Positions 7,686-15,775 of a stretch of DNA of 17,707 nucleotides are shown one piece after another. Origin of the DNA: a bacterium. Its GTDB lineage: Bacteria; Verrucomicrobiota; Verrucomicrobiia; Limisphaerales; J093. The notes beneath the pieces are model-generated. The model searched no databases. It was not told the origin of the DNA and worked only from the letters and a program-made list of their open reading frames with translations. Every line of letters starts with the position of its first letter. Position 1 is the stretch's first letter. Both the position numbers and the translations under genes were made by a program. The DNA lies in the NCBI GenBank assembly GCA_021784265.1, contig JAJXTA010000004.1:1-17707 (forward strand). The letters are read 5' to 3'.

Positions 7686-8495
7686 TTAGAACTTGCGCTT
7701 GTCCGTGGCCGCGCGGGACAGGGGCAGCAATGCCAGCAAGCTGGCCGCTAGGAGACCGGCGGTCGTGCTGGCGTCGGGCACAGGCTGACCTGAGTTGGGC
7801 ACCCGTTCACTGGTGTTGGGGGAAGAGAAAGCCAGCACCACGTCGTGCGCGGCGATGTAGTTCAGCAGCGTTGAGTCGGACGCGGCGGTGGAAAGGGTCA
7901 GGTGGAACTGGACGGTGTCTTGGACGGCCTGTACTCCGCCCGCGTCGCCCAATTTGCTGATAGCGCCGTAATTCGGGCCCTGAACCGACTTCGTCCCGGT
8001 AAAGTCTTGGCCGCTGGGAGAAACCATGCCCTGCACCGTCCCGATGCCGACCGTGCCGCTGAAAGAACCCAGGTCCTTCGCCGGCTCACTGAAACCCCAC
8101 TGCTTGCTTAGGTCGGTCCCGGCGCCGCCCGCGAAGTTGACGCCGGTTGATCCGTTGGCGATCTCCACGCTGCCGCCGGTAACCGCGACCCCCGTGGGGA
8201 GGTCAAAGCCGAAACCGGAAAGGATCGCCCCGCTGCCCGCCGGCGCCGCGCCCGCCGCCGAAGTGTTCTGAACCAGCACCGTCAACGTGGTCCCCGAAAC
8301 CGTCATGTTGAGGGTGCCCGAGAGCAGCGCCGGATTGGAGATGTTGCCTGACCCAGACTGGTAAGCCACGATGTCGTAAGGGATCAACGTGGCGCGGGCC
8401 GCCCAGGTCAACCCCAGCGCGGCAACCACCACACTGAGCCACACCCCCCGCGACAGGGTCGAGGGACTCAGATTCAATTCGGGTCTCGCGTTCAT
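7686..8495 (-). CDS. Secreted VPD-CTERM (exosortase-type) protein A
   Basis: A 269-residue exported protein. Residues 1-35 form a signal peptide with a hydrophobic core at 17-31 and a likely cleavage site after ARA (35). The mature part is rich in Gly, Ser, Thr and Val with a beta-sheet pattern, as in surface proteins of this class, and includes [15 protein letters not shown] (91-105), common in PEP-CTERM-type proteins. The C terminus is a tripartite sorting signal: VPDAST (239-244), a hydrophobic helix (245-260) and a basic end (R261, K266-R-K). This resembles VPDSG-CTERM tails processed by a dedicated exosortase in Verrucomicrobia, but Ala replaces the usual Ser/Gly after VPD. No catalytic motif is seen. 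A sigma-54 promoter and two repeated sites lie upstream. Confidence 0.88.
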
Positions 8496-8575: not shown

Positions 8576-8592
8576 AGCATTAATTGTGCCTG
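8576..8592 (-). promoter_or_regulatory. Sigma-54 promoter of VPD-CTERM gene A
   Basis: On the minus strand the sequence CAGGCACAATTAATGCT has the GG-N10-GC core (GG at 8590-8589, GC at 8578-8577). It matches most of the RpoN consensus YTGGCACGRNNNTTGCW. It places transcription start near 8565, giving a leader of about 70 bases before the ATG at 8495. The nearest enhancer-like site lies about 120 bases upstream. An inverted repeat (TTAATT at 8580-8585, AATTAA at 8593-8598) overlaps the promoter. Confidence 0.68.
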
Positions 8593-8710
8593 AATTAACA
8601 GGCAACCGCGCGTTGCCGCACGCGTCTTTGTAAACCACTGATCCAAAACAGCTTGGGAAATGACGGGGCCGTGCCGGGAAACCGAGCCGTGCTACGTTCG
8701 AGGGACGAGA

Positions 8711-8727
8711 TGTAAAGAACACCGACA
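8711..8727. promoter_or_regulatory. Enhancer-like site A1, TGTAAAGAACACCGACA
   Basis: This 17-base site fits TGTAA-N-GA-N4-CGAC-R, which occurs four times in the window, all in the same orientation and all upstream of the two VPD-CTERM genes. Its ends (TGT and ACA) are complementary. It lies 121 bases upstream of the -24 element of promoter A, a normal distance for an RpoN activator site. The similarity to A2 continues past the core into a CTCCCG stretch. Confidence 0.62.
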
Positions 8728-8810
8728 CCCCTCCCGGGCCCCTCACCGGGCGCCATGCGACAAGTCGTTGATTGCCAATGATATGGAATCTGTGAGAGAC
8801 CCCCGGATGA

Positions 8811-8827
8811 TGTAACGAAACCCGACA
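8811..8827. promoter_or_regulatory. Enhancer-like site A2, TGTAACGAAACCCGACA
   Basis: This is the second copy of the shared site upstream of VPD-CTERM gene A, exactly 100 bases beyond A1 and in the same orientation. It matches A1 at 14 of 17 positions. A weaker look-alike, TGTGAGAGACCCCCGGA, begins 20 bases before it at 8791. Confidence 0.58.
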
Positions 8828-8842
8828 CTGCCTCCCGTCCAT

Positions 8843-8856
8843 CTTATCATTATAAG
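8843..8856. repeat. AT-rich inverted repeat beyond site A2
   Basis: CTTAT (8843-8847) and ATAAG (8852-8856) are perfect inverted arms around a four-base centre. It lies 16 bases beyond A2. Gene B has a similar AT-rich inverted repeat next to its distal site. Confidence 0.35.
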
Positions 8857-9052
8857 GAGCTAGGAATCACCTCTGATGAACACTTACCTCCATAATCAGG
8901 TTGCCTCACCCATCCCGCCCCGGCCCTAATCCTGGACCGCGACCGGCCTGCTTGCCGGCAGGCAGATCTCCGTTCGCAGCGGGGGTTTTATCGTGTGAGG
9001 TCGCGTGTCTTCCGGTGGCAGGTCGGGTGGGGAGTCCTTCGCCCGCCGGGGG

Positions 9053-9085
9053 AAAAGCCGGACCGCGACCAGTTCCCGGTCGCGG
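9053..9085 (-). terminator. Possible terminator hairpin downstream of VPD-CTERM gene B
   Basis: CCGCGACC (9063-9070) and GGTCGCGG (9078-9085) form a perfect eight-base-pair stem around a seven-base loop. Read on the minus strand, the stem is followed after six bases by TTTT (9056-9053). It lies about 165 bases beyond the stop of gene B. The gap before the short T-run makes it an imperfect terminator. Confidence 0.35.
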
Positions 9086-9249
9086 CGGCGGTCTGGTGGT
9101 GGGCGCCCGGAGCTTCCTGGCCGGTCAGTTCTCCTGGCCCGGCTGTGGAGGGGGGAGCGTGGAGCGGCCGACAGCCGTGCCGCCCCCTGCGCAGTGGCAG
9201 CTCCTGGAGCCGGCGAGCCCTGGCCCGCCCATCCTGCCCGCCCCCGACC

Positions 9250-9960
9250 TCATGGGTGTTGGAAGCGCCGTCGCGACTCGAACACGAGGAGGATGCCCAG
9301 CAGTGTCAACTGGATGCCGGCGGTGCGGTCGGGCACGCCTGTGGGCGGGTTGTCGCTGACGTGCGAGCTCAGGCCATTGGGGCCGATCCCCTGGATGAAG
9401 GCGCTGGTATCGGCCACCAGTCCGCCCTTGCTGGTGCTGGCGGAGAGGAAGTCCACAGCCTGCAAATTGTTCCCGGCATTGGAAAGCTGAACGGTCAGCG
9501 TGTCCGAGCCATCGAAGCGTTTCGAGTCCGATCCCCCGGGACCAGTCGGAGAGCCCGCGCTCGTGGAGAAGGCGAAACTGACATCAAATCGGAGGGGACC
9601 GCTCTTGGTGGATGCCGGCATCTGAACGGTCGGCAAGGTAAACAGGCCGGACCGGCTGACCAGAGTGTACTTCAGGCCGCTGAGGAGGGCGTTGTCGTCG
9701 AGGTTAAACCACCACGCCGATACGAATTCCCCGGAGGGCATGCCGAGGGCGGTGAGGGTCAGATCCACCTTCCCGCTGCCGACGTCCGTGAACGTGGCGG
9801 AGAGCCACGGGGCCGTGCCGGGAGGCGTCGCGCCGGTATAGACCTGGTCGTAGTTGTAGGTGTAGGTGTTGGCGATCACCCGAGCGCCTGTCGTTGCCAA
9901 CCCGAGCAGTCCCACCACGAGCAGGGCTCGCACCCCTCGAAGCATTTGGTGCTGGATCAT
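9250..9960 (-). CDS. Secreted VPD-CTERM (exosortase-type) protein B
   Basis: A 236-residue exported protein from the ATG at 9960; a TTG two codons earlier is possible but less likely. A signal peptide covers about 1-30, with a hydrophobic core at 12-25. The mature domain contains PWLSATFTDVGSGKVDLTLT (51-70) followed closely by FVSAWWFNLDDN (79-90). This segment pattern recurs in many PEP-CTERM proteins of Verrucomicrobia and Proteobacteria. The C-terminal signal is VPDRTAG (209-215), a hydrophobic stretch (216-227) and the basic end SRRRF (229-233). The residues after VPD differ from the usual S-G/G-S. No enzymatic motif is visible, so a surface or matrix role is inferred from the class only. 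It shares promoter layout with gene A but little sequence outside the tail. Confidence 0.86.
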   Translation of the reverse strand: MIQHQMLRGVRALLVVGLLGLATTGARVIANTYTYNYDQVYTGATPPGTAPWLSATFTDVGSGKVDLTLTALGMPSGEFVSAWWFNLDDNALLSGLKYTLVSRSGLFTLPTVQMPASTKSGPLRFDVSFAFSTSAGSPTGPGGSDSKRFDGSDTLTVQLSNAGNNLQAVDFLSASTSKGGLVADTSAFIQGIGPNGLSSHVSDNPPTGVPDRTAGIQLTLLGILLVFESRRRFQHP

Positions 9961-10028
9961 GGGCAAAAAGGGTTAAACGTTGACTCGCGCCGCTTGTTCA
10001 TGTGCCTCAAAACAAACGGTACATGCTG

Positions 10029-10111
10029 CCAATTAGGTTATAAGAGCAGACGCCGTGCCAGCAACGTCCCGCAGCGGGCATCGGGCGGCTGATATGCCTA
10101 TAACCTGTTGG
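10029..10111. repeat. Inverted repeat flanking the sigma-54 promoter of gene B
   Basis: CCAATTAGGTTATA (10029-10042) and TATAACCTGTTGG (10099-10111) are inverted copies: eight bases match exactly, and after a one- or two-base difference four more match. The arms enclose the -24/-12 element, and the first covers the expected transcription start. CCTGTT (10104-10109) also pairs with AACAGG (10117-10122). Confidence 0.45.
10045..10061 (-). promoter_or_regulatory. Sigma-54 promoter of VPD-CTERM gene B
   Basis: On the minus strand CTGGCACGGCGTCTGCT matches the RpoN consensus YTGGCACGRNNNTTGCW at all but one defined position, with the GG-N10-GC core at 10059-10058 and 10047-10046. Expected transcription start is near 10034, giving a leader of about 75 bases. 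Distances to the start codon and to the upstream site nearly equal those of gene A. Confidence 0.8.
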
Positions 10112-10181
10112 ACATAAACAGGCAAGGCATCCACCAACGCGATGCTTCCCGACCCGGGCTCACCGCCCATGGGCCGAAAAC

Positions 10182-10198
10182 TGTAAGGACCCCCGACG
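10182..10198. promoter_or_regulatory. Enhancer-like site B1, TGTAAGGACCCCCGACG
   Basis: This copy of the shared TGTAA-N-GA-N4-CGAC-R site lies 123 bases upstream of the -24 element of promoter B, against 121 for A1 and promoter A. It matches A1 at 12 of 17 positions. Confidence 0.58.
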
Positions 10199-10261
10199 CA
10201 TTTCAGACCGCTTTACTCCCGCGCGGACTAAGTTGGGCGACCCAAGTACCTGACTATTAGA

Positions 10262-10291
10262 GTTATACAGTTAACACTCGACTGTGATAAC
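10262..10291. repeat. AT-rich inverted repeat next to site B2
   Basis: GTTATACAGT (10262-10271) is inverted as ACTGT-G-ATAAC (10281-10291), ten base pairs with one bulged G around a nine-base centre. It ends three bases before site B2, so it may belong to the same regulatory element. Confidence 0.45.
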
Positions 10292-10294
10292 CAT

Positions 10295-10311
10295 TGTAAA
10301 GAAATACGACG
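10295..10311. promoter_or_regulatory. Enhancer-like site B2, TGTAAAGAAATACGACG
   Basis: This is the fourth copy of the shared site, 113 bases beyond B1 in the same orientation. It keeps TGTAAAGAA and CGAC but has A where the others have C just before CGAC. No other gene start lies near enough to be its obvious target. Confidence 0.52.
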
Positions 10312-14647: not shown

Positions 14648-15151
14648 TCAGTTGCCCGAGACGTGGAATTGGACCGGCTGAAGCCCGCTCGGGTAGAGCG
14701 CAATACCCGGGGTGAAAATGCCGCGCGGGGCGCGGGAGCTGACGACCGGGTTCATGCTCGAGGCCTCGGCCATGTCGCCGGATTGGCCGAGCGGTTGGTG
14801 GGCCAGATCGATCGGCAAGGGCGCCACGGGCAACGGGCTGGCCATCACCCAGTGCTGGGCCGCCGAGCCGCTGGCCGCCGGCGCACCCTGTTCGGCGTAA
14901 TTGGCCAAACTCAAACCCAGAAAATAGACCGCCACCACCGCCACGCCGAAAGCGCCGACCAAGGCCGGCTGCAACCCGAAGCCGGTCTGCCACCGCACCC
15001 ACCACGGTTGCTGGGCGGTGGCTTCCAGGGCGATCAAGCGGGCCATCACGCGCTCGGGGAAGTCCTCGAAAAAGCCTGGCGGCGGCTGTTCATGCCGCTT
15101 AAAGGCCAGCAGCTTCTCAAGATCGTCGAACTCTTCCGGAGCCAAGCGCAT
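14648..15151 (-). CDS. Putative anti-sigma partner, single-pass membrane protein
   Basis: A 167-residue protein whose start lies three bases after the stop of the ECF sigma factor. The cytoplasmic N terminus (1-60) is charged and helical (FDDLEKLLAFKRHEQPPPGF, 8-27), followed by one membrane helix at 61-81 and a low-complexity outer part rich in Pro, Ala and Ser. This layout fits a membrane anti-sigma factor that holds the sigma factor until a signal arrives. The HxxxCxxC zinc motif of ZAS anti-sigma factors is absent, and there is no obvious sequence match to RseA, so the role is inferred from gene order and topology. It converges on addB with 29 bases between stops. Confidence 0.78.
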   Translation of the reverse strand: MRLAPEEFDDLEKLLAFKRHEQPPPGFFEDFPERVMARLIALEATAQQPWWVRWQTGFGLQPALVGAFGVAVVAVYFLGLSLANYAEQGAPAASGSAAQHWVMASPLPVAPLPIDLAHQPLGQSGDMAEASSMNPVVSSRAPRGIFTPGIALYPSGLQPVQFHVSGN

Positions 15152-15154
15152 TAC

Positions 15155-15775
15155 CTATTTCAAAAAATCGGACAAATGGGCCTGCAACTGTTGGCGCGCG
15201 TAAAACAACCGCGAGCGGACGGTGCCGACGTTGCAATTCATGATCTTGCCGATCTCGTCGTGCGGCAGGCCCTGAATGTCATGCAACGTAACAACCATTC
15301 TATGCTCTTCCGACAGCTTCCGCAGGGCCACGTTCAATCTCTCCTGGAGCTCGGCCAGGTTGATCTCGCGGCGGGGGGTTTTGTCCGAAATGAGGGCAAG
15401 CAAGCCGGGGTCATGTTCGGCATTGGTGTCCAAATCGTTCAGGCTCAGGTGAATGCGATTCTTGCGTTGCTTGAGGAAGTTAATCGTCTTGTTCACCGCG
15501 ATCCGATAAACCCAGGTGAAGAAGCTCGAGTCGCCTTTGAACGAGCGGAGGGCCTGGTAGGCCTTGATGAAGGTCTCTTGCGCCAGATCGTTGGCATCCT
15601 CATGGTTGGCGGTCATGTGATAGACCGTCGAGTAGATGCGCTCCTGGTAGCGACGGACCAACTGATCGTAGGCCTCCAGCTCCCCCTTTTGGGCGCGGGC
15701 GACCAGGAGGGGGTCGTCGGAAGGCGGTTTGGTCTCCGGCACCGGCGGTGGTTTTGGGTTCAGCGTGGCAATCAT
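15155..15775 (-). CDS. ECF-type RNA polymerase sigma factor
   Basis: A 206-residue RpoE-like sigma factor. Region 2 spans about 21-101 and contains YQERIYSTVYHMTANHEDAN and DLAQETFIKAYQAL (63-76), the DxAQExF signature, then FFTWVYRIAVN (85-95) for promoter melting. Region 4 (about 141-196) carries HRMVVTLHDIQGLPHDEIGK and the recognition helix NVGTVRSRLFYARQQL (182-197). Between them lies a linker at about 105-140. The first 20 residues are Pro-rich and precede the conserved part. It starts 14 bases after the polyprenyl synthase stop and is followed by a membrane protein that probably controls it. Region 1 is lacking, as in all ECF sigmas. The target promoters are unknown. Confidence 0.93.
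   Translation of the reverse strand: MIATLNPKPPPVPETKPPSDDPLLVARAQKGELEAYDQLVRRYQERIYSTVYHMTANHEDANDLAQETFIKAYQALRSFKGDSSFFTWVYRIAVNKTINFLKQRKNRIHLSLNDLDTNAEHDPGLLALISDKTPRREINLAELQERLNVALRKLSEEHRMVVTLHDIQGLPHDEIGKIMNCNVGTVRSRLFYARQQLQAHLSDFLK

Follow-up and report, generated by a model that had tools for sequence, protein, structure and literature searches.

A probable PrsK-PrsR/sigma-54 box regulon of genes with VPD-type sorting tails in a member of the Verrucomicrobiota

The window analyzed here is a stretch of 17,707 nucleotides (nt) from a bacterium of the Verrucomicrobiota (Limisphaerales, J093; contig JAJXTA010000004.1 of assembly GCA_021784265.1), in which two genes, gene 1 and gene 2, are each preceded by a sigma-54-type promoter and by two copies of a 17-nt box. 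With a probability of roughly 0.87 we attribute both genes to a PrsK-PrsR/sigma-54 regulon with VPD-type cargo and a longer spacing between site and promoter. The attribution is read from boxes, promoters and their coupling to genes with sorting tails, from the presence of PrsK, PrsR, RpoN and exosortases in the genome and from phylogenetic co-occurrence. What the sequences support as new is a PrsK-PrsR box regulon outside the Proteobacteria, with VPD-type cargo and longer spacing.

Box-promoter arrangements and gene products in the window

Both genes, their promoters and their boxes lie on the minus strand. The promoters, AGGCACAATTAATGC for gene 1 (AGGCAC-N6-TGC, 8576..8592) and TGGCACGGCGTCTGC for gene 2 (TGGCACG-N5-TGC, 10045..10061), are both of the GG-N10-GC form, with 81 nt and about 85 nt, respectively, between the GC and the start codon. 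The proximal PrsR-type box of gene 1, TGTCGGTGTTCTTTACA (8711..8727), is located 120 nt upstream of the GG, and the distal box, TGTCGGGTTTCGTTACA (8811..8827), 100 nt above the proximal one. For gene 2 the proximal box, CGTCGGGGGTCCTTACA (10182..10198), lies 122 nt upstream of the GG and the distal box, CGTCGTATTTCTTTACA (10295..10311), 113 nt above it. All four boxes contain TTACA, in two of them as TTTACA. The original prediction, made from this DNA alone, had placed both promoters at these positions, and its coordinates, site-promoter gaps, pair spacings and GC-start distances agreed with ours within one base, a matter of counting convention. When up to two mismatches to the site were allowed, the window gave six matches, four of them exact, as compared to 2.16 expected; 7 of 200 shuffles reached six.

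Gene 1 (7686..8495, ATG at 8495) encodes a secreted protein of 269 amino acids (aa), a proposed exosortase cargo of the XDD4 family, which scored 54.7 bits against the model of XDD4 exosortase-dependent surface proteins (NF045504, cut-off 40). Its C-terminal tail scored 17.7 bits as a protein and 22.1 bits in the genome search against the VPDSG model (TIGR03778, cut-off 22), and 19.1 bits against PF18205, below the cut-off of 25. The VPD tail of gene 1 thus stands near the model cut-off and is a weaker point of the observation. Gene 2 (9250..9960, ATG at 9960) encodes a secreted protein of about 236 aa ending in VPDRTAGIQLTLLGILLVFESRRRFQHP, likewise proposed as exosortase cargo, with a tail that reads by eye as VPD-hydrophobic-RRR; it matched no NCBIfam or Pfam model, the XDD4 and VPDSG models included. 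The earlier designation of both as VPD-CTERM genes therefore holds for gene 1 at a borderline VPDSG score and for gene 2 by eye, the latter lacking a match to any model. Both products count as proposed cargo with exosortase sorting tails, that of gene 1 weakly supported by a model and that of gene 2 recognized by eye, and the tails are of the VPD and not of the PEP class.

The site and its regulator in the genome and its relatives

The genome itself (G000) is represented by 4.33 Mb in 870 contigs and is 75.6% complete. The exact site, GTCG-N4-TC-N-TTACA, was found six times and the reversed pattern not once. Four of the six are the window boxes, and each of the six stands above a sigma-54-like promoter; the four genes concerned encode exosortase-type tails, of which three are VPD. 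As the original prediction of a regulon would have it, the site recurs before tail-bearing genes on other contigs of this genome, and it is also present before VPDSG genes in relatives. The two exact sites outside the window lie on contigs C309 and C623, each above a GG-N10-GC promoter and each with a second, one-mismatch copy further up, at 112 nt and 92 nt, respectively; the former precedes a 53-aa peptide ending in PAPETLDASAVYPLMGLVGLTFLFLKRRK, the latter a 264-aa protein ending in VPDVSGSLGLLGLGAGALVGLRRRLKV. A fifth box pair was detected on C440 before a VPDAASS gene with the promoter CGGCAC-N6-TGC. Neither of its copies fits the exact pattern; to GTCGG-N4-C-N-TTACA, one copy has no mismatch and the other has one. 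Paired boxes were present at each of the five promoters detected in this genome, and the exact site with a promoter 80-140 nt below it was counted four times. With one mismatch allowed, the number of matches rose to 26 as compared to 16 for the control, and isolated weak sites therefore carry no meaning.

The 53-aa frame on C309 (L001:1153-1315, minus strand) holds little beyond a signal peptide and a PAPE-hydrophobic-RRK tail and may be a tail-only cargo peptide. Divergently from its paired-box region starts a PrsT-like TPR fragment of 204 aa at the contig end (L001:1978-2591, plus strand), which scored 35.6 bits against a cut-off of 312.2. In the relative G079 a match of 443.5 bits to PrsT, a TPR lipoprotein (TIGR02917), is present on the prsKR contig.

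Since the two window genes are neighbours with a near-identical layout, a copied upstream segment could also be at the origin of the shared arrangement, which would then reflect descent and not a regulon. Outside the sites and the promoter, however, the two upstream regions look unrelated when read without alignment, their box pairs are spaced differently (100 and 113), and loci on C309, C623 and C440, as well as loci from other families within the order, show this layout again. We consider such a duplication very unlikely.

The genes expected for a PrsR circuit are present in the same genome. PrsR (TIGR02915) was found on contig C306, outside the window, with 606 bits (cut-off 502.6), and PrsK (TIGR02916) directly upstream of prsR in the same orientation with 392 bits (cut-off 300), its 5' end cut by the contig end. 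RpoN, the absence of which would have spoken against the original prediction, scored 419.6 bits (cut-off 277.35). Four exosortase-like matches were obtained, two of them (131 and 113 bits) over the cut-off of 105.55. The original prediction had called for a sigma-54 activator in a circuit parallel to that of the Proteobacteria. A regulon does exist at the sequence level; rather than being merely parallel, the system is by curated model PrsK/PrsR itself, with the same box as at proteobacterial PEP-CTERM genes.

Binding, phosphorylation, looping, transcription and export of both products, that is, every step past DNA and gene content, we infer from the NtrC family. The membrane kinase PrsK would sense a signal and phosphorylate the NtrC-type response regulator PrsR, which would bind the paired 17-nt boxes (consensus tGTCGG-N6-TTACA, with an outer TGT...ACA symmetry in the best copies) at distances of about 120 and 220-235 nt above the promoter. 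PrsR would then loop to the RpoN-RNA polymerase at the -24/-12 element and drive ATP-dependent open-complex formation, and exosortase cargo proteins with VPD-type tails would be switched on.

The distribution of these components was followed in 97 genomes, made up of this genome, 13 others from its family and 83 from its order. A profile search, which in its first look scored at most 15 candidates per genome, gave 31 PrsR matches over cut-off in 30 genomes. The scores split cleanly, the next one being a contig-cut match in G070 at 501 bits, followed by values of 438 bits or less among the matches listed. G047, which accounts for two of the matches (C421 and C480), has only one PrsK match over cut-off. 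Of the 32 genomes in which PrsK exceeded its cut-off, 29 belong to the 30 with PrsR; the remaining PrsR genome, G031, has a partial PrsK match. VPDSG genes were found in 36 genomes, 27 of the 30 with PrsR versus 9 of the 67 without (Fisher P 3.5e-13, a value inflated by genome kinship), and in seven of them (G002, G021, G031, G034, G055, G072 and G079) prsR and a VPDSG gene are about 10 kb apart or less. This co-occurrence is the counterpart, in another phylum, of the phylogenetic-profile argument from which PrsR was originally proposed.

Site and promoter were also counted jointly in this set. The exact site with a promoter 80-140 nt below gave 20 matches in 15 genomes as compared to one for the reversed pattern, and, when read by eye, 16 of the 20 stand before a tail gene, or 12 of 16 once the own genome is set aside; the four without a tail gene are in G017, G070, G071 and G079. 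Ten of the 30 genomes with PrsR contained such a match, as did 5 of the 67 without (P 0.002). The bare site, in contrast, was rejected as a genome-wide marker, as its exact form gave 109 matches in the 97 genomes versus 133 for the reversed pattern (row sum) and its one-mismatch form 26 versus 16 in the own genome; it is informative in combination with the promoter or in front of tail genes. Both counts would suit an origin of the whole arrangement by chance, in which a high GC content would make GG-N10-GC words frequent and the 17-mers would be coincidences. The six exact sites against none in the own genome, the 20 joint matches against one and the recovery of the dyad before tail genes that had been selected without it make coincidence exceedingly improbable.

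This recovery was obtained from VPDSG genes alone. Among 112 VPDSG matches, 101 with at least 200 nt upstream were kept and 11 were untestable; the window genes are outside this set. The letters of the dyads were left free, and a dyad was defined as a 4-mer and a 5-mer separated by 3-8 positions, a form chosen with knowledge of the site. In the PrsR genomes the top dyad was GTCG-N7-TTACA, present at 41 of 86 VPDSG genes and in 21 of 27 genomes, with one occurrence for the reversed dyad. At one mismatch or less, GTCGG-N4-C-N-TTACA was found at 46 of the 86 genes, with 0 for the reversed pattern and 3 on the other strand. The 25 best-scored upstream 7-mers were mostly pieces or edges of the box, the exceptions being AGCAGAA and ATGAAAA/TATGAAA. 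The gap between box and promoter in relatives had a median of 118 over 37 genes, 32 of which fell at 99-134 nt, and among 17 pair spacings eight were at 78-94 nt and five at 110-112 nt.

Relation to the proteobacterial regulon and wider distribution

As described in Haft 2006 (PMC1569441), motif 1 is a 17-nt sequence with the 3' end TTTACA, sometimes repeated and assigned to PrsR, which occurs before 99 of 167 proteobacterial PEP-CTERM genes, 62.8 +- 10.6 nt (32-92) above the sigma-54 motif; among the species studied there, it was shared by Proteobacteria only. The present box fits motif 1 in length, 3' end, position, promoter partner and the outcome of the dyad count. Likewise, it stands, sometimes repeated, above a -24(GG)/-12(GC) promoter of exosortase cargo, and PrsK and PrsR are adjacent by curated models. 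Unlike in the proteobacterial regulon, the host is outside the Proteobacteria and the tails are VPD/VPDSG and not PEP.

Two further systems invite comparison. The VPDSG-CTERM/XrtC system (TIGR03778, TIGR04151) is matched weakly by the tail of gene 1, and one of the four exosortase-like matches, a fragment located where contig C156 ends, is closest to the VPDSG-specific XrtC, with 108.9 bits over 156 model positions; the fragment is contig-cut and below the XrtC cut-off of 300, however, and the tail of gene 2 has no model match. As far as the account of DVUA0057 from Desulfovibrio vulgaris in PMC3333781 goes, this sigma-54-type response regulator gave enrichment of the five PEP-CTERM targets predicted for it when assayed in vitro by DNA-affinity-purification chip (DAP-chip). 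It resembles the present case in having predicted exosortase-cargo targets and differs in being deltaproteobacterial, in its PEP-type cargo and in that no binding motif was validated for it in that account. In Aquincola, a PEP-CTERM promoter with a mapped start is described as RpoN1-dependent (PMC9850573). A term search of the main text of a 2025 survey of sigma-54 regulons (PMC12316311) retrieved neither exosortase nor PEP-CTERM, and in the titles and abstract openings listed by searches of open-licence papers neither the box nor PrsR was reported from Verrucomicrobiota.

The same dyad emerged from proteobacterial loci. Thirty of 98 PEP-CTERM matches were used, from six genomes each picked for at least one box match and hence not a random sample of Proteobacteria. 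GTCG-N7-TTACA again ranked highest (11 of 30), level with TGTC-N8-TTACA, which belongs to the same site; the highest-ranking dyad unrelated to it, GGCA-N7-TGCTT (7 of 30), is the sigma-54 promoter. At one mismatch or less the box was present at 10 of the 30 loci, the reversed pattern at none. Nine box-promoter gaps measured here had a median of 95, a value that is biased because the six genomes were chosen for a gap of 103-133, so that the published 62.8 is the better yardstick.

A wide scan for a box followed after 103 to 133 nt by a promoter, across 84,980 species, each represented by a single genome, and with no reversed control, returned 52 loci, which belong to Verrucomicrobiota, Proteobacteria, Acidobacteriota and others. 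A tail gene (proline, hydrophobic stretch, basic end) was found behind 30 of the 52, as compared to 11 of 153 boxless promoter-like words. PrsR was searched for at 50 of the loci, L121 and L135 being left out since their genomes appeared to be represented already, and was over cut-off in 35 of 50 genomes. Cross-tabulation of the 52 loci gave 25 with both tail and PrsR, 5 with a tail only, 12 with PrsR only and 10 with neither (P 0.03). The regulon seems to reach the Acidobacteriota. L107 and L121, in the acidobacterial metagenome-assembled genome (MAG) USST_maxbin.036, are two near-identical box-promoter regions before VPDGGATLTLLGFALVGVGMLRR-tailed genes, in an assembly with a PrsR of 566.6 bits. 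L126, in the Akkermansiaceae MAG Tobar13m-G56, combines box, promoter and a VPDGGMTLALLG-tailed gene in an assembly with no PrsR over cut-off.

The recognition helix was read at 28 of 43 PrsR loci, chosen without regard to the helix-turn-helix (HTH) core, of which 12 were verrucomicrobial (two of them identical) and 16 proteobacterial. The core [ST]RPT[LF]Y was present in all 28; NtrC-like paralogues without it read SRRTLH (G041) and NRTDFY (L159). A PrsR tree could be built from 30 of the 43 loci (two identical), as 13 had no open frame meeting a pattern that included the HTH core. The 12 verrucomicrobial rows formed one side of a branch with support 100/98, in a tree whose root was not resolved. 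With these rows together on one side of a strong branch, a recent transfer into the order is unlikely; an old transfer of PrsR between phyla is possible.

From these comparisons, it appears that one control system serves sorted surface proteins in distant phyla. Whether PrsR and the box form an ancient cis-code for exosortase cargo, one that would predate the split of Proteobacteria and Verrucomicrobiota or have been exchanged only in deep time, with a constant site and recognition helix but diverging sorting tails (PEP versus VPDSG), exosortase classes and enhancer spacings, we regard as evenly balanced. If the code were that old, the box would find cargo missed by tail models, such as gene 2 and the 53-aa tail-only peptide on C309.

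Contrary observations and a different activator

Together with the bare-site counts, several observations weigh against the attribution to PrsR. The exact dyad is missing at 45 of the 86 VPDSG genes in PrsR genomes. In the own genome, no site was found upstream of the VPDSG gene on C121, and the one on C31 starts at a contig end, which makes its upstream region untestable. The gap of 120-122 nt between box and promoter exceeds the 32-92 nt of the proteobacterial set. In the wide scan, 22 of the 52 loci had no tail by the rule applied and 15 of the 50 genomes no PrsR over cut-off. Five loci combined box, promoter and tail in genomes with no PrsR over cut-off (G105, G116, G118, G128 and G132). 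Finally, G041, a genome that is 97% complete, has boxes before two VPDSG genes and neither PrsR nor PrsK over cut-off.

Part of this can be accommodated. Given that the exact dyad is absent from 45 of 86 VPDSG genes as well as from the gene on C121, the regulon would cover only part of the class. The published spacer is a descriptive statistic of a proteobacterial set, and we therefore count the longer gap as a variant. The tail rule missed tails with long extensions (L110, L143) and six of the tailless loci were near an edge; no row was dropped from the counts. In PrsR-negative genomes the dyad was present at 6 of 15 VPDSG genes, versus one for the reversed dyad, and these came from G010, G011, G039 and G041. 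A PrsK over cut-off is present in G011 and in G039, and a partial one in G010, so that the PrsR of these three was probably lost in assembly. For G041 (L196-L200, L213, L302, L345) either an assembly gap or a different activator would account for the boxes.

A different member of the NtrC family might indeed recognize the box in Verrucomicrobiota, with PrsK/PrsR merely travelling along with the exosortase system. The sites in G041 would then need no PrsR, and candidates are plentiful, with at least 15 NtrC-like matches in the own genome alone. The dyad is, however, the same as in Proteobacteria, the core of the recognition helix is common to both, the co-occurrence of PrsR with VPDSG genes is strong, and the full or partial PrsK in the three other PrsR-negative genomes with sites points to assembly gaps. 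Another activator is therefore improbable in our estimation.

If the attribution of the window genes to a PrsK-PrsR/sigma-54 regulon is correct, the control of exosortase cargo would be conserved across phyla with another class of sorting tail. With the box, the cargo of uncultured genomes could be listed from DNA alone, together with proteins overlooked by tail models, and comparison between phyla would make the question of the PrsK signal approachable.

Two minor observations concern the window itself. A AACAGGCA-like stretch, considered as another shared upstream element, occurs in both window regions but is rare (3 of 92 regions) and was rejected. At 14648-15775 on the minus strand, a frame for a sigma factor of the extracytoplasmic function (ECF) type (15155-15775), followed by a likely anti-sigma frame (14648-15151), was recognized by eye and is unrelated to the regulon.

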